Source: Rubrivivax sp. (GTDB lineage: Bacteria; Pseudomonadota; Gammaproteobacteria; Burkholderiales; Burkholderiaceae_C). From it: a stretch of DNA of 57,759 nucleotides. The notes beneath the pieces were generated by a model. That model was not told the DNA's origin, did not search any database, and saw only the letters and a program-made list of their open reading frames with translations. Shown piece by piece: positions 45,965 through 57,759 of the stretch (position 1 is the first letter of the stretch; every line of letters begins with the position of its first letter). The translations under genes and the position numbers were made by a program. The stretch is taken from positions 1-57,759 of the forward strand of contig DYOR01000004.1 of NCBI GenBank assembly GCA_020720385.1, written 5' to 3'.

Positions 45965-46740
45965 AAGGTCACACCGCTCTGGTCACGGGATCGACGCAAG
46001 GCATCGGACTGGCCGTGGTGCGAGGCCTGGCGCAAGCCGGTGCCGACGTGATCATCCACGGCATCGAGCCTCCCGGCCAGGGCGAAGGCATCGCCGCCGA
46101 GATCGCCGCACAGGGCGGCGTGAAGGCCGCCTACGTGTACGCCGATCTTGCCCGTGCCGAGGAGGCCGAGGGCCTGGTGGCCGCCGCCACCCGGGCGCTG
46201 CGCGCCCCCGACATCCTGGTCAACAACGCCGGCATCCAGTACACCTGCCCGGTCGAGAGCTTCCCGCTCGATCGCTGGAACGCCATCATCGCGGTCAACC
46301 TGACGGCGGCCTTCCTGACGATGAAGGCGGCACTGCCCGCGATGCGCCAGCAGGGCTGGGGGCGTGTCGTCAACATCGCCTCCGTGCATGGCCTGGTGGC
46401 TTCGGTCAACAAGGCGGCTTACCTCGCCGCCAAACATGGCCTCGTCGGCATGTCCAAGGGCGTGGCGCTGGAGAGCGCCCGCCAGGGCATCACCGTCAAC
46501 TGCATCTGCCCGGGCTGGACCGATACCCCGATCATCCAGCCGCAGATCGATGCGCGCGCCGCCCACTTCGGCGGCGACCGTCAGGCGGGCATCCGCGACC
46601 TGCTGAGCGAAAAGCAACCCAACCTGACCCTGCTGCCGCCCGAGCGCATCGGCGATGCCGCGGTGTTCCTGTGCAGCGATGCGGCCGCGGGAATCACCGG
46701 CGTGGCCCTGCCCATCGACGGCGGCTGGACCGCCCAATGA
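45958..46740 (+). CDS. 3-hydroxybutyrate dehydrogenase-type short-chain dehydrogenase
   Basis: A 260-residue SDR closely resembling 3-hydroxybutyrate dehydrogenases. Seen: the NAD motif TGSTQGIGLAV, NNAGIQYTCPVE, the catalytic Ser in NIASVHGLVAS, Tyr-Lys in AAYLAAKHG, and the C-terminal ITGVALPIDGGWTAQ. It likely oxidises a 3-hydroxyacid. It overlaps the ligase gene by 7 bp and is the third gene of the thiolase operon. Confidence 0.9.
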   Translation: MLKGHTALVTGSTQGIGLAVVRGLAQAGADVIIHGIEPPGQGEGIAAEIAAQGGVKAAYVYADLARAEEAEGLVAAATRALRAPDILVNNAGIQYTCPVESFPLDRWNAIIAVNLTAAFLTMKAALPAMRQQGWGRVVNIASVHGLVASVNKAAYLAAKHGLVGMSKGVALESARQGITVNCICPGWTDTPIIQPQIDARAAHFGGDRQAGIRDLLSEKQPNLTLLPPERIGDAAVFLCSDAAAGITGVALPIDGGWTAQ

Positions 46741-46774
46741 ACGACCTCGCCCCACACGACGCAAGGAGACAAGC

Positions 46775-46956
46775 ATGATGAGGTCGACCGCTGCGCGGTA
46801 AGCGGCGCGGTGGAGACGATGCGCAGCATCAAGCGCGCCCTCGACCCGAAGAACATCATGAATCCGGGCAAGGTGTTACTGCTCGAGCACGGTGACACCT
46901 CAATGACGGAACCTTCATGCACTTCGGGTGAGAGGGCTCCAATACGTCATCGTTGA
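46775..46956 (+). pseudogene. C-terminal remnant of an FAD-linked oxidase
   Basis: In one frame this stretch reads DEVDRCAVSGAVETMRSIKR, then ALDPKNIMNPGKVLLLEHGD, and continues to a TGA at 46954-46956. The conserved end of FAD-oxidase_C proteins (glycolate oxidase GlcD or D-lactate dehydrogenase) is xxIKxALDPxxIxNPGKVL, so this is a 3' stump. About 450 upstream residues are missing. It lies 35 bp after the SDR gene, in the same direction, so the operon probably once had a fourth gene. Confidence 0.75.
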
Positions 46957-47024
46957 TTTCGACATGCGCCGCTCCTGTTCGGCCGTGGCCCGCCGGCGCC
47001 GTGGAACTTCACCACGAACGTGCA

Positions 47025-47879
47025 TCAACGACCCCCTCTCACCGACGCGGTGAGTTGCCGGTAAACCTCGGTCGACACCCGGGTCAGCAACTGCTCGTCG
47101 GCGCCTGCCGATATTGCATAGCCGAACGGACCTTCGACCCAGTAGAAGACCTTGACCGGGCCTTGCTCGGCGAAGCGGAACGCAGTGTCGGCGTTCTTGC
47201 CGCCCCCGGGGTCGGTGACTTCATCGGACACGTACAGCGTCAGCTTGCCGCCATTGGCGTCGCGGTACATGAACTGGGCCACCGGGCCGCGCCCTCCCGG
47301 CAGCAGGCGACCGCCTTCGAGCGAGTAGCCGAGCGCCTGCAGGTGCGGTGGTTTCATCGGCGCGCCCATGCGCTTGGACAGCCAGGCGACGAGCTGATCC
47401 TCGTGGGCGGCATCGACTTCGACCGGGCGGCGCTCGTCCGGGCTGTAGACCGCATGAGCCACCGCGGCACGCTGCGCGAATCCGGCGGCCGAAGCCATCG
47501 CAACGGCCTGCGGCGCGCGCCCCGTGGCGACAGTCACCGGCGCGTCAGCGCCGGCCACCATGACATGCAGGCCCCATCCGGTCGTGCCACTGGCCAGCGC
47601 GATCGCGAAGCTCGCGGCGAGCTGCTGCAGGTACCACGGCCGCCGCGGCCGCACCGCCGCTTTGCGCACCCGCGGCGGCAGCGCTTCATCCAGCACCGGA
47701 TCGAACAAGGCGTGCAGCCCCTCCTTCTGCGCTACGTAGGCGGCCACGCGTGCCGCCTCCTCGGGCCGCGACGCGAGCCAGGCCTCGACCTCGGTCTGGC
47801 GCTCGGCCGTCATCTGCCCATCGACATAGGCGTGCAGCACGGCTTCGTTGATCGGTGTGTTCGGGTGCATCGGGCTCAT
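47025..47879 (-). CDS. Membrane anti-sigma factor 1
   Basis: A 284-residue protein with a cytoplasmic N-terminal anti-sigma domain (HAYVDGQMTAERQTEVEAWL) and one transmembrane helix near residues 84-108, then a long periplasmic domain. The N-terminal domain has no HxxxCxxC zinc motif. The periplasmic portion shares the pattern LVAWLSKRMGAPM / GYSLEGGRLLPG / GPVAQFMYRD with anti-sigma 2 of this window. It follows sigma 1 by 7 bp. It should sequester sigma 1 until an envelope signal releases it. Confidence 0.85.
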   Translation of the reverse strand: MSPMHPNTPINEAVLHAYVDGQMTAERQTEVEAWLASRPEEAARVAAYVAQKEGLHALFDPVLDEALPPRVRKAAVRPRRPWYLQQLAASFAIALASGTTGWGLHVMVAGADAPVTVATGRAPQAVAMASAAGFAQRAAVAHAVYSPDERRPVEVDAAHEDQLVAWLSKRMGAPMKPPHLQALGYSLEGGRLLPGGRGPVAQFMYRDANGGKLTLYVSDEVTDPGGGKNADTAFRFAEQGPVKVFYWVEGPFGYAISAGADEQLLTRVSTEVYRQLTASVRGGR

Positions 47880-47886
47880 GGCTTGC

Positions 47887-48393
47887 TCACTTGACGACCT
47901 TCAGGCGCTGCGGTGTCTCTCGGCCCTCCATCAGCGCACGCAGGCGCTCGCGGCCGCGTGACAGGCGCGACATCACGGTGCCGATCGGAATGCCCAGCGT
48001 GGCCGCGACTTCGGCGTAGGACATGTCCTCCAGGCCCACCAGCAGCACGACCTGCTTCTGTTCGAGCGGCAGCAGCTCCAGCGCGGCCTGCAGGTCGCGC
48101 AGGCTCAGCCGATCGCCCTGGGTCGGGGCCACCGGCACCTCGGGCGTGTCGTCGTCCATTTCCACCAGGCTGAGTCGCGGGCGGCGCACGCGGTCGACGT
48201 GCAGGTTGTGCATGATGCCGAGCAACCAGGCGCGCATGTCGGAGACGCCGCGCCACAGGCCGGCCTTGGACCAGGCACGCACGAGCGTCTCCTGGACCAG
48301 GTCGTCAGCATCGTCGCGATGGCGCGTCAGCGCCTGCGCGTAGCGGCGCAGCCTCGGCACGCAACTCAGCAGCAGCTGTTCATCGTCCTGCAT
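47887..48393 (-). CDS. ECF sigma factor 1
   Basis: A 168-residue ECF sigma factor with region 2 (DDADDLVQETLVRAWSKAGL) and region 4 (LPLEQKQVVLLVGLEDMSYA, then VAATLGIPIGTVMSRLSRGR). It is the third gene of an operon led by the NTF2-like and COG4315 genes, behind promoter P1. The P1 motif matches those near sigma 2, so autoregulation is likely. The ATG at 48393 is 30 bp after the COG4315 stop. Confidence 0.93.
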   Translation of the reverse strand: MQDDEQLLLSCVPRLRRYAQALTRHRDDADDLVQETLVRAWSKAGLWRGVSDMRAWLLGIMHNLHVDRVRRPRLSLVEMDDDTPEVPVAPTQGDRLSLRDLQAALELLPLEQKQVVLLVGLEDMSYAEVAATLGIPIGTVMSRLSRGRERLRALMEGRETPQRLKVVK

Positions 48394-48423: not shown

Positions 48424-48804
48424 TCACTCCTTGATGACATGCCAGACGCCTTTGAAGCCGTCGCCGCTGCGCTCGCCCGGCTTCTGGTCCGGCAAGTAGG
48501 TGTAGATCGGCTTGCCATGGTACGACCACTGCAGCGAGCCGTCGTCGCGCGTGACGAGCCCGAGCGGGCCGCTGGGCCTGGCGCTGCCTGCGGCCGCCGG
48601 CGCGGGCGGCCACAACGAGGCGCAGGGCCCGTTGCAGACACTCTTGCCGCTGCCGGCTACGTCGTTGTCGAAGGTGTAGAGCGTCATGCCCTTCGCTTCG
48701 ACGAGCACCCCATTGGTGAAACGAGTTGGCGCCTCGGCGGCACCGGCCGTGTTCAGCACGGCCAGTGCCAGCGCCGCGAGGGATGCGGGAACGTTGATGT
48801 TCAT
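48424..48804 (-). CDS. COG4315 secreted repeat protein
   Basis: A 126-residue exported protein with signal peptide MNINVPASLAALALAVLNTA and two repeats of the Lipoprotein_15/COG4315 type (GMTLYTFDNDVAGSGKSVCNG, and WSYHGKPIYTYLPDQKPG). A disulfide between the two Cys (VCNGPCASLWPP) is likely. Function unknown; the family appears in stress-induced operons. It is the second gene of the P1 operon, 30 bp after the NTF2-like gene. Confidence 0.85.
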   Translation of the reverse strand: MNINVPASLAALALAVLNTAGAAEAPTRFTNGVLVEAKGMTLYTFDNDVAGSGKSVCNGPCASLWPPAPAAAGSARPSGPLGLVTRDDGSLQWSYHGKPIYTYLPDQKPGERSGDGFKGVWHVIKE

Positions 48805-48834: not shown

Positions 48835-49269
48835 TCAATAGGCGGATGCGACCGCGAGTTTGGGGTCGATCTGCCAGGTTTCGCTGACGATCCGGCCTTC
48901 GCGGAAGGTCAGCACGTAGCGCACCTTGATCGGCGCCTTGCCCTCGAACAGCACGTTGGCGGAGACGGTCGCCCCCTTCGGATTGATCGATTCCTCGATC
49001 GCACCCACGCTGAGCTTGCGCGGGCTCTGGCCCTGCGTGAACTTGGTCCACACGCTGCGAATAGCGTCGGGCGTCGCGTAGGTGCCGTCCAACGGCCCGC
49101 CGACCCAGTTGAACTGGGCCTGGTCGGCATAGGCACGCATCACGACTTGCAGGTCGCCGGAGGCGATGGCCTGGAAATGCGTGAGCGCGTCGTCGGCCGG
49201 GGCGGCATTGACGGTGCCGGTCAGGGCAAGCAGGGTGGCCGCGAGGGCGGCAGTCGGGAGCTTGAACAT
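48835..49269 (-). CDS. Exported NTF2/SnoaL-like protein
   Basis: A 144-residue protein with signal peptide MFKLPTAALAATLLALTGTV and an NTF2-like cone fold (ALTHFQAIASGDLQVVMRAY, VRYVLTFREGRIVSETWQID). No catalytic residues are obvious. It is the first gene after promoter P1, followed by COG4315, sigma 1 and anti-sigma 1. The ATG at 49269 is used because the longer frame crosses P1. Confidence 0.85.
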   Translation of the reverse strand: MFKLPTAALAATLLALTGTVNAAPADDALTHFQAIASGDLQVVMRAYADQAQFNWVGGPLDGTYATPDAIRSVWTKFTQGQSPRKLSVGAIEESINPKGATVSANVLFEGKAPIKVRYVLTFREGRIVSETWQIDPKLAVASAY

Positions 49270-49283
49270 GGTTTCGATTCCTG

Positions 49284-49362
49284 AAGTGAAGGTGGACAAA
49301 GGTGTGGCGAGCGGCCGGCTCCCATCGGTAGACGGGAGCTGGCCGCCATTCATTCCAGGGTG
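49284..49362. repeat. Palindromic promoter repeat, copy 1
   Basis: An ~80-bp segment nearly identical to 51124-51207. It contains GCGGCCGGCTCCC, a 10-nt loop with the -10 box, then GGGAGCTGGCCGC (one G:T wobble), plus the flanking AAGTGAAGGTGG and ATTCATTCC. The arms span the spacer and the start region of P1, so it could be an operator or a duplicated promoter. Confidence 0.7.
49327..49356 (-). promoter_or_regulatory. ECF promoter P1 for NTF2-COG4315-sigma1-anti-sigma1
   Basis: On the minus strand GGAATGAA (49349-49356) and GTCTAC (49328-49333) are separated by 15 bp; the leader to the ATG at 49269 is about 50 nt. The same pattern precedes the PEP-CTERM gene, sigma 2 and the DUF4148 gene. 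The -10 box lies within the loop of the palindrome at 49311-49347. The further 170 bp upstream to the AcfC-like gene contain no recognisable gene. Confidence 0.65.
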
Positions 49363-49530
49363 CTTGAACTACTGCCCGTGTGGCCGGCGCTGTCGGTCCA
49401 GCGCACCACGGCCGTGGCTCTCGTGTCGTCGGCGCGCGTGGCGGGGCAAGACCCTCCCGCCCGACCAGCGGCCCCGGCGGGAGGAACGTCACCCAGTCAG
49501 CGTCGCCAGGCAGCAGGCGGGTCAATGTGT

Positions 49531-50292
49531 TCAGCGCTTCCAGCCCTGTCGCTTGAATACCTGCTCTCCCAGATCCGATTTGAGGTAGGCGACGAACTGC
49601 GCAGCGGCCTTTGTCTCATGGCCGCGGGCAGTCACGGCGATATCGGTGGCGCGCCAGATCGTCAGCTCCGGCTCGACGGCTACCATGTCAGCGACGGCGC
49701 TGTCGTTGATCTGCCAGTGTGTCCAGATCAGCCAGGCGTCGATGTCGACCTGTTCGCCCCAGCGTTTACGCGCCATGCCGGAATTCGGGGCGAAGGCGAC
49801 GATGTTGCCGCGAAAGCCCTTGAGCAGCCCGATATCCCCGCTGCGCCCGGCCGCGTCCTCCCACATGCCGACCTGTCCTGCGCCCTCGGTGACCATGATC
49901 TTCATGCCGGGCTTGGTGAGGTCGCGCAAGCCCTTGATGGACTTCGGGTTGCCTTTGCGCACGAGGATGGCAGAGGGACGAAGGTAGAGTGGTTCGACGG
50001 TGCTTTCGTCAATCTGCCCGGCGAAGGCGGTGATGAAGCTGCTCATCATGTTTTCCGAGCCCGAGAAGATGAGGTGAGCGTCGCCTTTGGCCTGTTCAAG
50101 CCAAGCGGGTGTCGGCCCGGCGGTCACGACGACCTCGATTCCCTTTTCCTTGGCGAAGGCCTTCGCCAGTTCCTTGACGGCCGGAGCCGGGCCGCCAGGA
50201 CCGTAGATCCTGAGCGTTTCGGCGTGTGCCAAATGGACGGACAGGATCAATCCGGCGAGCAGAGCGGCAACGAGTGTGACGGGTTTGCGCAT
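49531..50292 (-). CDS. AcfC-like periplasmic substrate-binding protein
   Basis: A 253-residue protein with signal peptide (VTLVAALLAGLILSVHLAHA) and a type II periplasmic binding fold related to ModA and the accessory colonisation factor AcfC (TLRIYGPGGPAPAVKELAKA, LIFSGSENMMSSFI, APNSGMARKRWGEQV). No ABC permease or ATPase is adjacent, so it is an orphan receptor. It lies 98 bp downstream of the PEP-CTERM gene and may be read from P2. The ligand is unknown. Confidence 0.82.
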   Translation of the reverse strand: MRKPVTLVAALLAGLILSVHLAHAETLRIYGPGGPAPAVKELAKAFAKEKGIEVVVTAGPTPAWLEQAKGDAHLIFSGSENMMSSFITAFAGQIDESTVEPLYLRPSAILVRKGNPKSIKGLRDLTKPGMKIMVTEGAGQVGMWEDAAGRSGDIGLLKGFRGNIVAFAPNSGMARKRWGEQVDIDAWLIWTHWQINDSAVADMVAVEPELTIWRATDIAVTARGHETKAAAQFVAYLKSDLGEQVFKRQGWKR

Positions 50293-50390
50293 GGCGTGGT
50301 TTTCGGATGGATACGGGACAGGAGATGGACAAAGGAGGTCGTGGCATGGCCCTCAGGCACCGGCCCGAGAGCCACGCTTCACGCCCTGCC

Positions 50391-51104
50391 TCAGGACCGG
50401 CTTTGCGCGCGACGCTGCGCACGCTTCACGTTGGCACCAATCAAGCCCAAGCCCGCCAAAAGCAGGGCATAGGTCTGCGGCTCGGGAACGGCTGTGACCT
50501 GGAACCCAAGGTTGGCTCCGTCCGGGGCGAAGTCGCTGATCTGGTTGTTCTTGCCCAGCCCAACGCGCGGCCACAGATTCCAGGTGTACTGGCTGGGGTC
50601 GCTTCTGAAGCCGGCTGTGGCGGGAGCAAACAAGTCAAGCGACAGACCTTCCACCGTGACCGCGCGGCCTGCGATGTCGATGTCGCCCGAGTCCAGCGCG
50701 GTCACTTTGCTGTTGATGAAGTCGTTGTAAATGCCCGTGCCGTCTGGGCGCACGATGAGCACCGAATCGAAGAACACGCCGCTGCCGATGGAAGGCGAGC
50801 CGGCCAGAAAGCGCTCGGTGCCGCGCCCACGGTCGATTCCCCAGACATACAGCGCACCGGCTGTCAGCCCCACTTCGTCGGCCAGGATGGTGCTGAAGGA
50901 AAAGGACTTGTCAGCGCCATCGTAGAAGGCGGCAGCCGTGATGACATCCAGGTCGCCATTGGCTGGCCCGGCGGTGTAGGAGGGCAGGAAATCGTTGTAT
51001 GCATCGACAACCGCGAAGGGACTGGCGGTGGCGTGTGCGGCGCAGACCCCTGCTGCTGCGGCGATGAATGCCGTCCGCAAGGCGCGGTCTCGTAGGCGTG
51101 ACAT
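50391..51104 (-). CDS. PEP-CTERM sorting domain protein
   Basis: A 237-residue exported protein with N-terminal signal MSRLRDRALRTAFIAAAAGV, a beta-rich middle with no known enzyme motifs, and a C-terminal PEP-CTERM signal: VPEPQTYALLLAGLGLIG followed by basic residues KRAQRRAQ. Such proteins are processed by exosortase and usually belong to the exopolysaccharide matrix. The exosortase is not in this window. The start at 51104 follows a GGAG site, behind promoter P2. Confidence 0.9.
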   Translation of the reverse strand: MSRLRDRALRTAFIAAAAGVCAAHATASPFAVVDAYNDFLPSYTAGPANGDLDVITAAAFYDGADKSFSFSTILADEVGLTAGALYVWGIDRGRGTERFLAGSPSIGSGVFFDSVLIVRPDGTGIYNDFINSKVTALDSGDIDIAGRAVTVEGLSLDLFAPATAGFRSDPSQYTWNLWPRVGLGKNNQISDFAPDGANLGFQVTAVPEPQTYALLLAGLGLIGANVKRAQRRAQSRS

Positions 51105-51123
51105 GTGTTCTCCTTTGATGGGC

Positions 51124-51207
51124 AAGTGAAGGTGGTGAGAGATGCTGCGAGCGGCCGGCTCCCATCGGTGGACGAGAGCCGGCCGCCATTTATTCCATCC
51201 GGGCACC
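51124..51207. repeat. Palindromic promoter repeat, copy 2
   Basis: The second copy of the ~80-bp segment at 49284-49362. The arms GCGGCCGGCTCCC and GAGAGCCGGCCGC pair with one mismatch; the position that is a G:T wobble in copy 1 is a G:C pair here, while copy 2 has a C:A mismatch elsewhere. The loop again holds the -10 box. Confidence 0.7.
51167..51196 (-). promoter_or_regulatory. ECF promoter P2 for the PEP-CTERM gene
   Basis: On the minus strand GGAATAAA (51189-51196), then 15 bp, then GTCCAC (51168-51173), one base from the GTCTAC of the other sites. The leader to the ATG at 51104 is about 57 nt. Confidence 0.6.
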
Positions 51208-51302
51208 GTGAAGCGCCCCAACGGATCGGCGCTCAGGCCGACGGGGTGAGTGCCTGGCCCAGCGTGCCGTCGACCACCCAGGTCAGAAGAACTTCCGCGG
51301 GT

Positions 51303-51479
51303 TCATGCCTGCCTAAAGCGCGAACCGACCTGCTCGGCGTAGCCGTCGAACACCAGCGTCGGCGGCCGCTTCGCGAACAGGCCGAAGGCGGGCAGCGCCA
51401 GCGGATGCATCGCCTCGCCGAGCCGCAGCCCCTCCGCGTACGGCCAGGCGCGCACCGGCGAACGCAGCCCAGGCGTCTA
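51303..51479 (-). pseudogene. Possible C-terminal remnant of MsrP/YedY-like oxidoreductase
   Basis: The frame, running from a TAG at 51479 to a TGA at 51303-51305, contains [20 protein letters not shown] then FGLFAK. This resembles the WPYVEGLRLDEAMHPL segment of MsrP, the molybdopterin methionine-sulfoxide reductase. The sequence after FGLFAK does not match MsrP, so it may be a fusion of fragments. No complete gene is present in 51209-51509; this is the only coding signal seen. Confidence 0.5.
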
Positions 51480-51509
51480 GGCAGCAGGGTCAGAAGCTGG
51501 TCATGACGA

Positions 51510-52439
51510 TCATTTCGGGCTGGCCGGGTTCAGAGGGAAACAGCTCAGATCGTCGGCAAACGCGACCGGGCCGGCATAGCGGGCGCGAATCGCGGCGAGC
51601 GTTTCGGCCTCGCGGCCCAGGGTGCGCAACATGCGGTGCGACAACACCAGCTTCTTGACTCCGGCCTGTGCGGCGATGCGGCCAATGTCATCGGGCGTCA
51701 TGTGCAGCGAGTGCACCGCGCCAGTGGTGCCGACGGGGACCGCGTTGTGCGCGACGAAAATATCGGCGTCGCGCGCGAGGGCTATCAGTTCCCCTTTGCC
51801 GCTGGTGTCGCCCGAAAACGCGACGACTGCGCCGGCGATCTCGACGCGCCACGCCAGCGCGGGCAGGGAGCCGTGTTCCACGGCGGCCGCGCTCAATCGC
51901 ATATCGTGGAATGTCGCCACGTTCACAAGCTTGCCGTCGGCTTTCACCTCTTGCGCTTCGAGCGTGTAGCTGCCACTGCCGTCGAGAAAATCGCCCAGGT
52001 AGCGGAACGCGCCCGCCTTGCCGAACAGGGCGTCGGTGAAGGCCACCGCACCCGGCATGCGCGCGTTGCCAGGCGGGCCATAGACCGGCAGTGCACGGCG
52101 GCGGTCTTCGAAGTAACTGGATTTGACCAGCGCGGCAAAGTCGCTCGAGTGGTCGGCGTGGAAATGCGTGAACGCGACGGCATCGAGATCGGCCATGGTG
52201 GCCCCGGCCTCGCCGAAGCGCAGCTTCACGCCGCCGCCCGCATCGACCAGCAGCCGCGCTCGGCCGTCCTGCCACACGAGATAGCCGCTGGACGCGCGCT
52301 TGTCCGCCGCCTCAGGGCCGCCCGAGCCAAGCACCTGCACCGCCACACCCGACGCCTCGCACTGCGTCGCTGCCGCTGACGACGCACTCAGGACAGACAG
52401 GCCTGCGCAGACGGCACACCACAGGATCGATATACGCAT
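51510..52439 (-). CDS. Exported metallo-beta-lactamase-fold hydrolase
   Basis: A 309-residue protein with signal peptide MRISILWCAVCAGLSVLSAS and a metallo-hydrolase domain: FTHFHADHSSDF (HxHxDH), VAFSGDTSGKGEL and VLSHRM. The overall pattern resembles the ribonuclease Z/arylsulfatase-type periplasmic MBL proteins. The substrate is unknown. It starts just after the trpG-like remnant on the same strand; the upstream gene is DUF305. Confidence 0.86.
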   Translation of the reverse strand: MRISILWCAVCAGLSVLSASSAAATQCEASGVAVQVLGSGGPEAADKRASSGYLVWQDGRARLLVDAGGGVKLRFGEAGATMADLDAVAFTHFHADHSSDFAALVKSSYFEDRRRALPVYGPPGNARMPGAVAFTDALFGKAGAFRYLGDFLDGSGSYTLEAQEVKADGKLVNVATFHDMRLSAAAVEHGSLPALAWRVEIAGAVVAFSGDTSGKGELIALARDADIFVAHNAVPVGTTGAVHSLHMTPDDIGRIAAQAGVKKLVLSHRMLRTLGREAETLAAIRARYAGPVAFADDLSCFPLNPASPK

Positions 52440-52441
52440 AT

Positions 52442-52527
52442 TCAGACTCCAGGTTTGAGGAAGCTGGCGAGCATGGCGTGGCCGTGCTCGGTGAGGATGG
52501 ACTCGGGATGGAACCGCACGCCATGAC
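52442..52527 (-). pseudogene. C-terminal remnant of anthranilate synthase glutaminase (TrpG-like)
   Basis: In one minus-strand frame this segment reads HGVRFHPESILTEHGHAMLA then SFLKPGV and stop (52442-52444). This is the end of TrpG/PabA glutaminases, with the catalytic HPE. The first ~170 residues are missing and the reading frame upstream is unrelated. No trp genes are nearby, so it is a transplanted or decayed fragment. Confidence 0.75.
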
Positions 52528-52584
52528 GTCGCCGTCGTCTGCCCATGCAGTGATGGCTGGTATCCCGCTCCGTGTTGACGCGCA

Positions 52585-53094
52585 TCACCGCGGTCCGCGG
52601 GTGCCGCCGAGCGAGGGGAACTCGGGCGCGCCCGCACCGCCCTCTTTGCGCAGCAACGCCAGGCGCCGCTGCATGCCTTCGATCTCGACCGTCTGCCCGG
52701 CGATGATCTCATCGGCCAACTGGCGGGTCACCGGGTCGCGACCGTACTGCAACACCAGGCGTGCCATGTCGACCGCGCCCTGATGGTGGGGCACCATCAT
52801 GGCGAGAAAGTCCACGTCGGGGTTGCCGCTGTAGCCCGGGGCGTGCATGGCTTCCATCATCACGGCCATGCCGGTGTCCATCTCTTGCTGGAAGTCGGAC
52901 GATGGGGTCGGCAGCGATGCCCCGTGCCCGTGATGCTGCGGGCCAACCGCCCACACGGCACTCACGGCGGCTGCCGCAGCGACCGCAGGCACCGTGAGCA
53001 ACTGCGCCAGATGTCGCCGTCGGGACGTGCTCACTGGAGTGCCTTCACGCTGCGCGCTCCGGTACTCGCCCTTGGGGCGGCCCGGCGTGCTCAT
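52585..53094 (-). CDS. DUF305 family exported protein
   Basis: A 169-residue protein with an N-terminal region leading to a hydrophobic segment (LAQLLTVPAVAAAAAVSAVW) and a DUF305 ferritin-like helical domain: MDTGMAVMMEAMHAPGY, DVDFLAMMVPHHQGAVDMAR and LADEIIAGQTVEIEGMQRRL. His/Met-rich motifs suggest metal binding, often copper. The ATG at 53094 overlaps the beta-propeller gene stop (ATGA); a GTG at 53034 is another start. Confidence 0.86.
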   Translation of the reverse strand: MSTPGRPKGEYRSAQREGTPVSTSRRRHLAQLLTVPAVAAAAAVSAVWAVGPQHHGHGASLPTPSSDFQQEMDTGMAVMMEAMHAPGYSGNPDVDFLAMMVPHHQGAVDMARLVLQYGRDPVTRQLADEIIAGQTVEIEGMQRRLALLRKEGGAGAPEFPSLGGTRGPR

Positions 53095-54458
53095 GCCGTT
53101 TGCCCCTTCGTGCCCGGGCGCACGTAGACAAGGTTGATGCTCTTCTTGTTGCGCAGTTCGCCTGAAGGCAGTTTCAAGCTGCCGAGCGGAATCTGCGCGA
53201 TGAACCCAGGCCGCAGCGGATCGCTCACGTCGAACGCGCTGCAGACGGTCTGGCCAGCGTTGGGCGTGCCCGGCAGTTCGTCCTGCTCGTGGGCGACGTA
53301 GAGAAGCGTGTTCTCGGGGTTGGTCCACAGCCCGTGCGCCTCCCGGCCGTGGCTGAAGAAGCTGCCGACCATGCGGCGCTGTCCGCGCATTGCCCCGCGA
53401 TCGATGATCGCAATCTGGCTGGAAGCCACGCCGCCGGGGCCGCCGTCGTCGACCCGCGCGAGGCTGGCATAGGTCACGCTGCCACGTGCGTTGGAGACGA
53501 ACTCCACGTGATTGGGCCGTGCCCCCATGCCGAGCGCCATGCTGTCGACTAGATCGAAGCCCCCCCGAGTCGAGCGACACGACAGCGCATCGGCCAACTT
53601 GTGCGAGAACCAGACCTCATCACCCTCGGCCGTGGTCTTCATGAAGGGCGTGAAGCCGGGCTTGTCCTGCGCAGAGATGTCCAAGGTCGTGAGCTGTTCC
53701 GGCCTGGAGTGGCCGTCCGGCCCCGCATTGACGCGCAAGACGTCAACGCGCGCCACCTTCTGGCTGGACACGAAGGCCAGCGTGCCCTCGCGGTTGAACC
53801 AGACCTGCGCAGGGCCGCTCAGAGTGGGCAAGTACTGCCGCACCGGCGAGAGGTCCGCCCCTCGAAGGTGGCGCAGTGCCTGAGCCACATCCAGGATGGC
53901 GATGCGGGCCTCGCCGCGCATGGTGACCCACAACTCCTTGCCGTTGCGCGTGAACGTGGGCTCGTGCGGCTCACGGCCAAGCAGGATGCCGCTGGACAGG
54001 CGCTCGCGGCTCGTCGATTCGCCAGCCGCCGGATTCGGCGCGTTGCCGATGACACGCCTCTCGACCGCGTCGATCAGGTAGATGTTGCTCGAGCCGCGGC
54101 CGCTGGTCGCCAGCAAGGTGCCGTCTGGTGATGGCACGGCACCATGGGCGTCGATGCAGCCGTGATACAGGGGCTTGTGGATCATCGCCGCATGAGTCGG
54201 TGCCACACCCGCCGTGACATAGCGGAACGGAGGCCGCGGGTCCTCGTCGAAACTTGTCAGGTTGATGGTGGTGTCGACCACGTTGCGGTGCGGATCGATG
54301 ACGACCAGGGTGTTCGAGTCCTCGTTGGTGATGAAGACACGGTCACGCGGGTCGATGCCGCCAGGCGCGGCCACGCCCTGTGCCGTCACCGCGGGCAATG
54401 CGACGGCGGCGGATGCTGCGAGGCTTTGCTTCAGGAAATCACGTCTGTCCAGTGTCAT
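53091..54458 (-). CDS. Tat-exported YVTN beta-propeller protein
   Basis: A 455-residue protein with a twin-arginine signal (TLDRRDFLKQSLAASAAVAL) and about seven beta-propeller blades of the YVTN/cytochrome-D1-like type (VFITNEDSNTLVVIDPHRNV, NIYLIDAVERRVIG, QIAIIDRG). Propeller-type proteins bind metals or haem or act as scaffolds; no enzyme motif is seen. Tat export implies folding in the cytoplasm, perhaps with a cofactor. It overlaps DUF305 by 4 bp. The 170-bp gap to anti-sigma 2 has no visible ECF box. Confidence 0.85.
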   Translation of the reverse strand: MTLDRRDFLKQSLAASAAVALPAVTAQGVAAPGGIDPRDRVFITNEDSNTLVVIDPHRNVVDTTINLTSFDEDPRPPFRYVTAGVAPTHAAMIHKPLYHGCIDAHGAVPSPDGTLLATSGRGSSNIYLIDAVERRVIGNAPNPAAGESTSRERLSSGILLGREPHEPTFTRNGKELWVTMRGEARIAILDVAQALRHLRGADLSPVRQYLPTLSGPAQVWFNREGTLAFVSSQKVARVDVLRVNAGPDGHSRPEQLTTLDISAQDKPGFTPFMKTTAEGDEVWFSHKLADALSCRSTRGGFDLVDSMALGMGARPNHVEFVSNARGSVTYASLARVDDGGPGGVASSQIAIIDRGAMRGQRRMVGSFFSHGREAHGLWTNPENTLLYVAHEQDELPGTPNAGQTVCSAFDVSDPLRPGFIAQIPLGSLKLPSGELRNKKSINLVYVRPGTKGQTA

Positions 54459-54628
54459 GGGGTTCCTTGTATGGGAGAGTGAATGGTGGGACTGACTGCG
54501 CTCGATGGCGATCGAGCGGCGGCGCAGACCCCGAAAGCCGAGTTCAAGAGCAGTTCCCCGGTCTTGAAGAGAGCCGTGCGTGCGGGTACTGCGTTCGAAC
54601 CGCGTTGCGCTTGCGGTGGGTGGATGCC

Positions 54629-55405
54629 TCAAGTCGTTGGCTTCGACCTCGCCTGCTTTCTGACCTCATCGGCAACCGGGTGCAGCAGGCTTGGCGGCTC
54701 CGTGCCGACCATGCTGTAGCCCATGCCGAGGGCCGCCCACGAGAAGCCCCCAAGGTTCCCCGCGGACTGTTCCATCATGGGAGCCTCCTTCTCATGGGCC
54801 ATCGGACGAATCATCAGGGCCACCCGCGTTCCGTCCGTGCGGTCATAGAAGAAGAGACCGGCGGGGCCATGACCCGTGGCAACCAGCCTGCCGCCCACAT
54901 AGTGGTAGCCGGATTGGCTGAGGTCGGGGATCTCGACCGGCCGCTTCAGCTTGTTCGAAACCAGGGTCACAAGCGCGTTCTTGTCGGCGTCGCCGACGGG
55001 GTCCGTCGCATAAGCCGTGTAGCTGCTGCGAGCCTCCCCCGCCAGCACGGCAATTCCGCCCGTCGGCTGCCATGCAACGCGCATCTGCCAACCGCCGAAC
55101 GTGCCGGTTCCCAGCGAGAGCAGCACGGCTGCAGCCATCTGCCAGCCCCAGGGTCGCGACGCGCGTCGACGGGCCATCGATGTGGCAATCTTCAGGCGCT
55201 CAGGCACCGGCTCATCCGCGATCGGCGCAAGCGCTGAGCGCAGCATTTGGCGCTGGGCGGCAAACTTGGCAACCACAGCCGCGGCCTCCGGACTCCGGTC
55301 CAGGTAGTCCTGAACCTCCTTGCGCCGAGGTGCATCCAGCGCGCCGTCGACGAAGGCGTGCAGTTCCTCCTCGACGACGGGAGCAGGTGACGAATGCGTG
55401 GCCAT
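54629..55405 (-). CDS. Membrane anti-sigma factor 2
   Basis: A 258-residue paralogue of anti-sigma 1: N-terminal domain LHAFVDGALDAPRRKEVQDY without zinc cysteines, a transmembrane helix (WQMAAAVLLSLGTGTFGGWQ) near residue 100, and a periplasmic domain with LVTLVSNKLKRPVEI, GYHYVGGRLVATG and AGLFFYDRTDG. It abuts sigma 2 with no spacer, so the pair is co-translated. Confidence 0.87.
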   Translation of the reverse strand: MATHSSPAPVVEEELHAFVDGALDAPRRKEVQDYLDRSPEAAAVVAKFAAQRQMLRSALAPIADEPVPERLKIATSMARRRASRPWGWQMAAAVLLSLGTGTFGGWQMRVAWQPTGGIAVLAGEARSSYTAYATDPVGDADKNALVTLVSNKLKRPVEIPDLSQSGYHYVGGRLVATGHGPAGLFFYDRTDGTRVALMIRPMAHEKEAPMMEQSAGNLGGFSWAALGMGYSMVGTEPPSLLHPVADEVRKQARSKPTT

Positions 55406-55939
55406 TTACTTTGCCCTCCGCAAAAGAACCTCGCCCTGGGGACGAGCCGCTTGAACGCCTTGTCCTTCGAGCGCACGCTGCAGGCGCTCTCTGCCACGCG
55501 CAAGTCGAGACATCACCGTACCGATGGGAATGTTGAGCAACTTGGCCGCCTCGGCGTAGGTCAGGTCCTCAACGGATACCAGCAGGATCACACTGCGCTG
55601 ATCTTCCGGCAACGCGGCCAGCGCCTTCATCAGCTCTCCATGACGAACCCTGTGCTCCTGCGCAGCGGGTGCCGCCAGAGCCGACTCTTCAACCTCGGCA
55701 AGGTCGATGTGCAATCCACGCCGGGCGTCCTGGCGCAACTTGTTGATGATGAGGTTGTGCGCAATGGCAAACACCCACTGCCGGGTATCTTCTTCACGCC
55801 GTCTGGAGCCCCAATGACTGATCACGCGCTCAAGGCAGTCCTGCACCAGGTCGTCGGCGAGATCCCGATCCCGCAGCATCGCGCCGGCGTAGCGACGCAG
55901 CGCCGGAATCAGCGGTTCGACCGCCGCGGTGAGATCCAT
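55406..55939 (-). CDS. ECF sigma factor 2
   Basis: A 177-residue ECF sigma factor (start MDLTAAVEPLIPALRRYAGA). Region 2 holds DRDLADDLVQDCLERVISHW; region 4 has LPEDQRSVILLVSVEDLTYA and AKLLNIPIGTVMSRLARGRE. The recognition helix is almost identical to sigma 1. I moved the start from the ATG at 56005 to 55939 because the first lies too close to promoter P3 to be transcribed, and GGGAG precedes the second. Anti-sigma 2 follows immediately. Confidence 0.9.
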   Translation of the reverse strand: MDLTAAVEPLIPALRRYAGAMLRDRDLADDLVQDCLERVISHWGSRRREEDTRQWVFAIAHNLIINKLRQDARRGLHIDLAEVEESALAAPAAQEHRVRHGELMKALAALPEDQRSVILLVSVEDLTYAEAAKLLNIPIGTVMSRLARGRERLQRALEGQGVQAARPQGEVLLRRAK

Positions 55940-56007
55940 GCCATCGCTCCCGTTCAATTGCTCGGCGACCTGCTTCGAGTCGACAGGGCCGCCGTGCCCC
56001 GCCATCT

Positions 56008-56036
56008 CGTAGACAAGCGAGCCCGGGGTTTATTCC
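56008..56036 (-). promoter_or_regulatory. ECF promoter P3 for sigma2-anti-sigma2
   Basis: On the minus strand GGAATAAA (56029-56036), 14 bp, then GTCTAC (56009-56014). The -10 box lies only 3 nt upstream of an ATG at 56005, which is therefore probably not used; the transcript would begin near 56002. Confidence 0.65.
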
Positions 56037-56097
56037 CCCGAGCACCCTTCTCCGCACACTTGCGGCGGCGCCGTCATTGCACTGCGCATCCTGATCC

Positions 56098-56493
56098 TCA
56101 GTTCAGAGCGACCTGGCTTTGGCTCATCATCACACGCTCGCCCGCCATGCGGATCGCCTCCAGTTGCAGCGGCGTGGCGTCAGGCACGCCGATCTCGCCG
56201 TAGCTCGTGAGGCCGAGGCGCTTGGCTTCGATCGTCTCGGCGACGACTTGCGCGCGCGACTTCGTCGACCGGAAGCCGAGGCCGGCAATGCGCTCCACGT
56301 CGCTGTCGTTGCGCGCGATCAGGCCGGCGCGCGAGGCGGCGGCGGTCTCGGCGGCGACTTCGGCACGCGTCTTCGTGGACTTGAAGTTGTCGATCTCCGG
56401 CGCAATCGTGATGTCGTCTGCGAAGGCGGCGGTCGCGCCGAAAAGCGTCACGCCGGCAGTCGCGGCGACGAGCAGGAATTTCTTGCTGAACAT
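56098..56493 (-). CDS. DUF4148-like exported protein with an internal duplication
   Basis: A 131-residue protein with signal peptide MFSKKFLLVAATAGVTLFGA and two imperfect repeats (NFKSTKTRAEVAAETAAASR and GFRSTKSRAQVVAETIEAKR), consistent with the DUF4148 family common in Burkholderiales. Function unknown. It has its own ECF-type promoter P4 and a long leader with a 9-bp hairpin. It stops 159 bp before sigma 2. Confidence 0.78.
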   Translation of the reverse strand: MFSKKFLLVAATAGVTLFGATAAFADDITIAPEIDNFKSTKTRAEVAAETAAASRAGLIARNDSDVERIAGLGFRSTKSRAQVVAETIEAKRLGLTSYGEIGVPDATPLQLEAIRMAGERVMMSQSQVALN

Positions 56494-56596
56494 GATCAAA
56501 GGCTCCATACGTGAGTTGAGAGTGGGTCGAGAGGGGTGGCCGCCGCTCCAGGTTGAGGAGCGACAGGGCAGGAGCCGATCGAGCGTTCGCGTCCTA

Positions 56597-56618
56597 AAGT
56601 CGGTCTGCGGACCGACTT
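56597..56618. other. Hairpin in the leader of the DUF4148 gene
   Basis: AAGTCGGTC (56597-56605) and GACCGACTT (56610-56618) form a perfect 9-bp stem with a TGCG loop. It lies inside the predicted ~150-nt leader. There is no T-run, so it is not a clear terminator; it could stabilise the mRNA or bind a regulator. Confidence 0.55.
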
Positions 56619-56648
56619 GCGGAGGTACTCGTTGCAGCCCTGTCTCTG

Positions 56649-56677
56649 CGTAGACAGTGGCACCGCCCGGTTATTCC
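56649..56677 (-). promoter_or_regulatory. ECF promoter P4 for the DUF4148 gene
   Basis: On the minus strand GGAATAAC (56670-56677), 14 bp, then GTCTAC (56650-56655). CTGTCT/AGACAG inverted repeats overlap the -10 box. The leader to the ATG at 56493 is about 150 nt. Apart from this promoter and the hairpin, the 56509-56820 gap holds nothing I recognise. Confidence 0.65.
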
Positions 56678-56820: not shown

Positions 56821-57211
56821 ATGCAGATGAACCGAGTTCAGTTCCAGAAGGGTCTGTCTACGCCTGAGTTTCTGGCGCTCTACGGCACCCAGGAGCAGTG
56901 CGAGCAGGCCCTGGTGGCGGTGCGCTGGCTGTCGGGCTTCGTCTGCCCGGCGTGCGGCGTGATGGAATCGCGCACGACGTTTCGCCGCCAGGGTCGGTTG
57001 TACTGGCAGTGCTCGGGCTGCGAGCATCAGTGCAGTGTGACCAGCGGGACGGTCTTTGGCTCCACCAAGCTGCCGCTGACGCTGTGGTTCCTGGCGATGC
57101 AATTGCTGACCCAGTCCAAGACCAACGTCTCTGCGCTCGAACTCAAGCGCCAGCTGGGCGTTTGCTACCGCACCGCCTGGCTCGTCAAGCACAAGCTGCT
57201 TGTGGCCCTGG
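56821..57211 (+). pseudogene. IS1595-family transposase, interrupted
   Basis: The frame encodes the N-terminal ~130 residues of an IS1595-type transposase: FLALYGTQEQCEQALVAVRW, a zinc ribbon with FVCPACGVMES and WQCSGCEHQCSVTSGT, then LWFLAMQLLTQSKTNVSALE and the HTH-like YRTAWLVKHKLL. The homology stops near 57205, where the left end of an IS21-type element begins. The DDE catalytic domain is absent from the window. It cannot be active as seen. Confidence 0.85.
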
Positions 57212-57759
57212 TGGCCACCCAAATTCCCCCACCCATGGCCACCTCAAATTCCTCCACCCTGACCGTGCTTCGATGAGGCGCTGATCAGGCCGGCAAGGCC
57301 GGCTGGTCAGGGCCGAGCAGGACGTTACTTTCCACCCCCTCATTACCGAGGGGATACAAGGAGTGAACGTCTTGAAGCCACATTTGCAGACAACGATCTG
57401 GACCCTGCTGGAAGCGGGTTCCAGCCAGCGAGAGATCGAGCGGGTCACGGGGATCGATCGCAAGACGATCCGCGCGTACGAGAAGCGATTCGCCACCGCT
57501 GCCCCGGCAACTTCCCCCGGGGTGGCCACCGGCGCGGCGCCGCAAATTCCCCCACCCCGGCCACCGACCTCGGCTGCGGTGACGGCAGCGGTGACAGCCT
57601 CAGCCTGCGAGCCCCACCGCGCCTTCATCGAAGCCCAGCTTCGACTGCGCCGCAATGCTATGGCCATCTACCAGGACCTGGTGGACCTGCACGGCTTCAC
57701 CGGGGCCTACAACTCGGTCAAGCGCTTTGCGGGCAAGCTGCGCCACCGCGAGCCCGAGC
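57212..57759 (+). mobile_element. IS21-family insertion sequence, left part
   Basis: Starts with TGGCCACCCAAATTCCCCCA at 57212 and has a second similar copy, TGGCCACCTCAAATTCC, at 57236, which looks like the repeated terminal sequences of IS21 elements. A palindromic stretch (CAGGCCGGC/GCCGGCTG) follows at 57288. The istA gene begins at 57363 and continues beyond the window; istB is outside. The element interrupts the IS1595 transposase. Confidence 0.75.
57363..57759 (+). CDS. istA: IS21-family transposase IstA, N-terminal part
   Basis: At least 132 residues before the right edge. The N-terminal HTH is TLLEAGSSQREIERVTGID followed by KTIRAYEKRF. A proline/alanine-rich linker and then LVDLHGFTGAYNSVKRFAGK, typical of IstA, follow. 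The start is the GTG at 57363, preceded by AAGGA; a TTG at 57372 is possible. The DDE core lies outside the window. Confidence 0.85.
   Translation, partial: MNVLKPHLQTTIWTLLEAGSSQREIERVTGIDRKTIRAYEKRFATAAPATSPGVATGAAPQIPPPRPPTSAAVTAAVTASACEPHRAFIEAQLRLRRNAMAIYQDLVDLHGFTGAYNSVKRFAGKLRHREPE

Follow-up and report, generated by a model that had tools for sequence, protein, structure and literature searches.

In a 57,759-nucleotide stretch of DNA from Rubrivivax sp. (contig DYOR01000004.1, positions 1 to 57,759; hereafter the window), we analyzed a cluster of genes for two sigma factors of the extracytoplasmic function (ECF) type, sigma1 and sigma2, together with four similar promoter-like sites, P1 to P4. 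It is quite probable, judging from the sequence comparisons below, that the locus encodes two sigma/anti-sigma pairs of the ECF26 type, each of which would drive its own operon and one nearby exported-protein operon upon a periplasmic signal. Each membrane-anchored anti-sigma, predicted to consist of a cytoplasmic N-terminal domain, one membrane segment and a periplasmic C-terminal domain, would hold its sigma until the signal frees it, and the freed sigma would then transcribe the two operons from a GGAATRA/GTCYAC promoter. Sigma1 would most likely act on P1 (NTF2, Lipoprotein_15, sigma1, anti-sigma1) and P2 (PEP-CTERM, PEB3/AcfC protein), where the gap between GGAAT and GTC is 18 nt, and sigma2 most likely on P3 (sigma2, anti-sigma2, YncE, DUF305) and P4 (DUF4148), where it is 17 nt, with some cross-talk; the trigger would most likely be periplasmic sulfite or a related oxidant making methionine sulfoxide. 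The locus-specific ECF26-type regulon appears to be real and of an already described kind, and the split in spacer length is possibly new.

Four probable promoter sites at the locus

An earlier sequence-only reading had placed four minus-strand copies of an ECF-type promoter motif in the window, each ahead of a gene or operon, and all four are present. P1 (49328..49356; GGAATGA-N16-GTCTAC) precedes the genes for an NTF2/SnoaL-like exported protein (48835..49269), a Lipoprotein_15 (COG4315-type) secreted protein (48424..48804), sigma1 (47887..48393) and anti-sigma1 (47025..47879). P2 (51168..51196; GGAATAA-N16-GTCCAC) precedes the gene for a PEP-CTERM exported protein (50391..51104) and probably also serves the gene behind it, which encodes a periplasmic binding-type protein of the PEB3/AcfC family (49531..50292). 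P3 (56009..56036) precedes sigma2 (55406..55939) and anti-sigma2 (54629..55405) and probably also drives the genes for a YncE-type protein (53091..54458) and a DUF305 protein (52585..53094), and P4 (56650..56677) precedes the gene for a DUF4148 exported protein (56098..56493). All these genes lie, like the sites, on the minus strand. P3 and P4 both read exactly GGAATAA-N15-GTCTAC. P2 is one base off (GTCCAC), as had been said, but P1 deviates too (GGAATGA), so that two sites differ by one base. From the end of the -10 box to the ATG, the distance is 58 nt for the NTF2 gene, 63 nt for the PEP-CTERM gene and 156 nt for the DUF4148 gene. The four sites probably act as promoters.

Within the assembly, the sites are unique to this locus. 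A relaxed pattern covering all of them (GGAATRA-N15/16-GTCYAC) was expected 0.01 times in the window, and none of 100 shuffles reached four matches. When we scanned the whole 3.36 Mb assembly (3,355,934 bases in 210 contigs, completeness 93.06), we found these four sites and no fifth, with zero matches of the backward pattern used as a control; about 0.23 were expected by chance from the base composition. The looser form GGAAT-N17/18-GTCNAC had eight matches in the genome, namely the four sites and one each on contigs C9, C41, C132 and C163, and its control had one. Together with the conservation described below, these results support a set of ECF-type autoregulating promoters ahead of both sigma/anti-sigma loci and of exported proteins. 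Terminator-like sites were not above chance in the region (3 found, 5.9 expected).

Relation to known ECF26 systems

The sequence-only reading had suspected an undescribed system. In the excerpts available of the papers on S. meliloti, the ECF26 consensus is given as GGAATA (-35) and GT/CGTC (-10) (PMC6180224, PMC6527743), and the motif of the window corresponds to it and to the mapped rpoE1 and rpoE4 promoters. According to the same papers and PMC3511301, again in excerpts, the ECF26 sigmas autoregulate, have their anti-sigma downstream and are activated by sulfite; the rpoE1 operon has a "lipoprotein 15" gene at its head; and the RpoE1 target SMc02156 is of the periplasmic-binding type, with acf genes and PEB3 among its cited homologues. 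These sources thus describe an ECF26/RpoE1 system with the same motif, the same Lipoprotein_15-sigma-anti-sigma gene order and a target of the PEB3/AcfC type, and the system of the window can no longer be called undescribed.

The homology extends to the proteins. A promoter string published for S. meliloti led to a single locus, from Ensifer sp. USDA 6670, in which Lipoprotein_15, sigma and anti-sigma genes follow the promoter in the order of the P1 operon. The Lipoprotein_15 protein of the window, a homologue of the rpoE1-operon protein SMc01418, is 42% identical over 93 residues to its counterpart in that locus, and anti-sigma1 and anti-sigma2 are 34% (full length) and 31% identical to the EcfR1-type protein there. 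Both anti-sigmas are encoded directly downstream of their sigmas, as in ECF26 systems, show full-length EcfR1-type homology and have a hydropathy maximum in mid-protein, although a modest one (1.31 and 1.02); anti-sigma1 has one candidate transmembrane segment. The Lipoprotein_15 gene stands upstream of sigma1, and sigma2 is without such a gene. NF009164 was the best NCBIfam model for seven of seven sigmas compared (sigma1, sigma2, Ensifer RpoE1 and RpoE4, S. meliloti RpoE6, a further Ensifer sigma (L040) and one from contig C123 of the own genome), all scoring under the curated cut-off of 185, and an EcfG-like Ensifer sigma had a different best model. The recognition helices of sigma1 and sigma2 are indeed near-identical, but this says little about a shared regulon, since Ensifer RpoE1 and S. 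meliloti RpoE6 contain the string IPIGTVMSRL as well, which makes it family-typical. ECF26 membership is supported by the promoter consensus, seen both in the window and in orthologous loci, by the operon and by the anti-sigmas, and the sigma phylogeny does not decide it. The size of the anti-sigma family is a further sign of a common kind of system: of 8,000 candidates scored, 7,965 matched at E<=0.001.

Like the S. meliloti RpoE1/EcfR1 system (operon SMc01418-rpoE1-ecfR1), which is among the closest known systems, the window has a promoter of the form GGAATAAA/GTCT with an 18-nt gap, a Lipoprotein_15 gene at the head, an anti-sigma homologous over its full length and a target of the PEB3/AcfC-type family, the likeness to SMc02156 resting on the family members cited in the excerpted paper. 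Unlike in S. meliloti, the operon of the window is headed by the NTF2 gene, the PEB3/AcfC gene lies behind the PEP-CTERM gene, and the cluster adds a second sigma/anti-sigma pair, YncE, DUF305 and DUF4148. The sulfite-oxidation circuits of S. meliloti RpoE4 and St. novella SigE, also ECF26, share the -35 GGAAT and the -10 CGTC in their excerpted descriptions, and RpoE4 is there said to autoregulate and to have a partner ECF26 sigma with overlapping targets; unlike these circuits, the genome of the window yielded no SorT/SorA.

Two other classes were rejected. ECF16 (SigF/NrsF) uses (T/C)GTAAC-N17-CGAA and a six-helix DUF1109 anti-sigma, whereas the promoters here are GGAATRA/GTCYAC and the anti-sigmas have no DUF1109 Pfam match; the window system may perhaps work like ECF16 SigF/NrsF, which controls MsrPQ, in placing periplasmic methionine-sulfoxide repair under an ECF sigma, as a gene cluster in a relative suggests (see below), but it is not a member. 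The ZAS type of zinc/thiol anti-sigma has HxxxCxxC, which is missing here, and neither anti-sigma contains a cysteine, so that a switch based on thiols or on zinc in the classic manner is ruled out.

The sigma on contig C123 (C123:2020-2493) is a third ECF26-like sigma of the own genome; it is 45% identical to sigma1, and the motif is absent from its 3.2-kb locus.

Conservation in relatives

We then compared 300 genomes of the order, the own one included. Sigma1 homologues were found at E<=1e-20 in 103 of them. To count promoters, we used 31 other sigma1 loci (29 of the 30 returned loci, the own one being left out, minus two duplicate rows and plus four plasmid loci) and searched the 200 nt ahead of the first gene of each operon for GGAATA-N15..18-GT[CT]. 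The footprint was present ahead of the orthologous operon in 24 of the 31, compared with 2 on the opposite strand, 0 for the reversed pattern and a mean of 0.1 (largest 2) in 200 shuffles. The -10 reads GTT in 18 of these 24 sites and GTC in 6; a strict GTC had matched only 9 of 33 upstream regions and was dropped. GGAATAA-N15/16-GTYTAC occurred in 32 of the 77 other genomes in which sigma1 has a homologue (at about E 3e-33 or better) but in 20 of the 222 lacking one (one-sided Fisher, 1e-9), and 16 of its 64 matches lay within 2 kb upstream of such a homologue on the same strand. A looser GGAATRA..GTCYRC matched 113 of the 299 other genomes, with many matches of the backward control as well, so single matches were not used as evidence.

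The PEB3/AcfC gene was detected in 6 of 300 genomes at E<=1e-40, the own one included, and shares a contig with a sigma1 homologue in three of the five others. Plasmids carry close relatives of the sigma1 module, and three genomes of the same genus lack the motif even in its looser form and have no sigma2 match at E<=1e-30, so the cluster looks accessory and mobile.

Spacer length and the two sigma lineages

The sites fall into two pairs by the gap between GGAAT and GTC, which is 18 nt in P1 and P2 and 17 nt in P3 and P4. The same division was seen elsewhere. Five genomes encode a close sigma2 (60-90%), and the sites up to 4 kb upstream of it on the same strand had a gap of 17 in seven of seven cases (six of six with a stricter pattern), whereas the gap at other sigma loci was 18 in 41 of 46 sites, or 40 of 45 distinct ones after one duplicate was removed. 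The Fisher value of this split, 6e-6 (3e-5 for the stricter six), is rough since the counts include related genomes. The genome G475 carries both modules: NTF2, Lipoprotein_15, sigma1 and anti-sigma1 are 71, 68, 74 and 63% identical to those of the window and stand behind a gap of 18, and sigma2, anti-sigma2, YncE and DUF305 are 90, 86, 85 and 77% identical and stand behind a gap of 17. The equivalent of P3 lies there 207 nt upstream of the sigma2 open reading frame (ORF) start used in that genome, and equivalents of P4 precede DUF4148-like ORFs in G475 (weak Pfam match) and G511 (by eye).

The spacer split at the locus, in the two lineages and in G475 favours two parallel, partly insulated sub-regulons. 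Our tentative proposal, for which we would claim a little less than even confidence, is that a single base pair of spacer does most of the work of separating the two ECF26 circuits, sigma1 preferring GGAAT-18-GTC and sigma2 GGAAT-17-GTC. The spacer would then be an insulating code by which a duplicated sulfite/oxidation sensor runs two sets of exported proteins, and a simple rule by which duplicated ECF sigma factors avoid cross-talk. No claim of such insulation between paralogous ECF sigmas appears in the excerpts of PMC3817407 and PMC6180224, although it may still be published.

It had been proposed that one signal drives both sigma loci. Both sigmas might indeed use all four promoters interchangeably, with the 17/18 gap only tuning their strength, since the -35 and -10 boxes and the recognition helices are nearly identical, the published targets of RpoE1 and RpoE4 in S. 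meliloti overlap and one ECF26 promoter there is activated by three of the four ECF26 sigmas (PMC3511301, PMC10880074, in excerpts), and an excerpt of PMC6527743 notes 1-bp spacing differences and suggests effects on strength. Such cross-activation keeps the proposal alive, but it is weakened by the gap of 17 in all seven sigma2-lineage sites as against 5 of 45 distinct sites of the other loci, and by G475, where 18 stands before sigma1 and 17 before sigma2; we regard a single shared regulon as possible but doubtful. It seems hardly credible that the sites resemble each other only through DNA repetition or by chance. P1 and P2 do belong to a 74-bp duplication with an inverted repeat, so only three of the four sites are independent, but P3 and P4 do not share this duplication, only about 0.23 sites are expected per genome and the site is kept in other loci.

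The probable inducing signal

Gene neighbours in relatives point to sulfur chemistry in the periplasm. On plasmids of Methylibium sp. T29-B and Acidovorax sp. T1, the sigma1 module adjoins a further sigma, a sulfite oxidase (SorA) and a cytochrome c, and the motif stands ahead of NTF2, in T29-B also ahead of the Lipoprotein_15-sigma1 and the lactonase-MBL genes. In the genome G075, anti-sigma1 is followed in series by a PEB3-type gene and SorA; NTF2-PEB3 is divergent from sigma1 in G287; and on the Massilia forsythiae plasmid the neighbourhood of the PEB3-type gene includes a molybdopterin oxidoreductase, a TDT transporter and a putative sulfate exporter. In G475 (L186, 4334-7504), the motif is followed by DUF4148, PEB3-type, MsrP and MsrQ genes. 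The presence of SorA or MsrPQ in modules of relatives suggests periplasmic sulfite or methionine-oxidation stress, and we consider periplasmic sulfite, or a related oxidant making methionine sulfoxide, the most likely signal. The "envelope stress" of the sequence-only reading was thus too general. According to an excerpt of PMC3511301, some ECF26 sigmas fail to respond to compounds that generate sulfite.

Reactive chlorine or another oxidant, rather than sulfite, might instead be sensed. The G475 cluster of DUF4148, PEB3-type, MsrP and MsrQ genes behind the motif fits this, as does the control of Msr genes by several ECF systems of a different group, ECF16 (PMC8315932, excerpt). On the other hand, only a single genome showed the linkage to MsrPQ and the own msrPQ genes have no motif, ECF16 differs in its promoter and six-helix anti-sigma according to the same excerpt, and SorA linkage was found in three loci; we regard reactive chlorine or another oxidant in place of sulfite as possible but less likely. 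The G475 cluster may in its own right mark a link of ECF26-type promoters with periplasmic methionine-sulfoxide repair. In the T29-B plasmid locus (L031), the motif at 119-147 lies between a gene annotated as YeiH family and the beta-propeller lactonase-MBL pair, so the regulon there may be wider.

In the excerpted PMC6527743 (2019), the sulfite-oxidase genes of beta-proteobacteria are said to lack the consensus in their upstream regions, and no close RpoE1 homologue was found in group 3. In contrast, we found an RpoE1-like operon with this promoter beside SorA on two beta-proteobacterial plasmids, although its identity to the ECF26 sigmas of Ensifer is only about 35-40%. Most of what is known of ECF26 circuits comes from alpha-proteobacteria, and the cluster may be a beta-proteobacterial, partly plasmid-borne version that adds PEP-CTERM, NTF2, DUF4148, DUF305, PEB3/AcfC-type and, in a relative, MsrPQ proteins as candidate ECF26 targets.

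Several observations weigh against two ECF26 pairs responding to such a signal. Seven of the 31 sigma1 loci, one of them truncated, have no footprint, and the absence of motif and sigma2 from the three same-genus genomes belongs here as well. No motif was found upstream of the PEB3/AcfC gene on its strand in four plasmid loci (L116-L119) and five genome loci (L121-L125), the only match directly ahead of such genes in these nine being a chance match inside a gene in L121, and a PEB3/AcfC protein search of Ensifer USDA 6670, bearing on homology to SMc02156, gave no match. The two PF00174 matches of the own genome include no SorA: one is weak, and the strong match is to MsrP, whose 3.5-kb locus contains no motif. 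Besides the NF009164 scores below cut-off, a tree of 37 sigma sequences did not separate the ECF26 group, which came out as an open fork shared with EcfG-like rows, and it gave sigma2 no firm position.

Gene products, duplicated segment and flanking DNA

In the sigma1 module, the NTF2-like protein matches PF12680 (SnoaL_2), the Lipoprotein_15 protein PF03640 and sigma1 PF08281/PF04542. The PEP-CTERM protein (PF07589) is 41% identical over 138 residues to a protein of the T29-B plasmid. The PEB3/AcfC-family protein, whose gene was absent from the earlier gene list, matches the PDB sequences of PEB3 (2e-55) and AcfC (2e-49).

In the sigma2 module, the sigma2 ORF opens at 56005, the start assumed earlier; since this ATG lies only 3 nt after GTCTAC, translation more likely starts at the ATG at 55939, behind a GGGAG. 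The YncE-type protein has a Tat-like leader (PF10518 just under cut-off) and is 85% identical to the product of the gene after anti-sigma2 in G475, and the DUF305 gene (PF03713) overlaps the YncE stop (ATGA). A secreted MBL-fold hydrolase (51510..52439, minus strand; PF12706) is of uncertain regulon membership; a 33% homologue in T29-B sits after a gene preceded by the motif. The DUF4148 protein matches PF13663, and a literature search combining DUF4148, sigma factor and Burkholderia returned nothing. By eye, the non-sigma products have Sec- or Tat-like leaders.

Just beyond P4, an ORF for an IS1595-type transposase zinc ribbon lies on the plus strand (56821-57276), and an ORF from 57372 to the window end, without a Pfam match, presumably represents the start of an IS21-type transposase. 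Between an SDR gene and anti-sigma1, 46740-47020 is a short remnant-like stretch that may correspond to the C-terminus of an FAD-linked oxidase.

The duplicated 74-bp segments (49284..49357 at P1 and 51124..51197 at P2, both minus strand) share 64 identities, and P3 and P4 are without them. Each copy contains an inverted repeat (49311-49346 and 51151-51186) that is centred near the -10 and reaches from within the spacer across the -10 into the start region; each repeat has one imperfect pair, at a different position in the two copies. Its DNA folding energies, -16.9 and -18.9 kcal/mol, were better than all 200 shuffles in both copies. A dispersed element was ruled out, as an 18-mer of the repeat has two exact copies in the genome, at P1 and P2; the repeat may serve as an operator or may simply have been left behind by the duplication.

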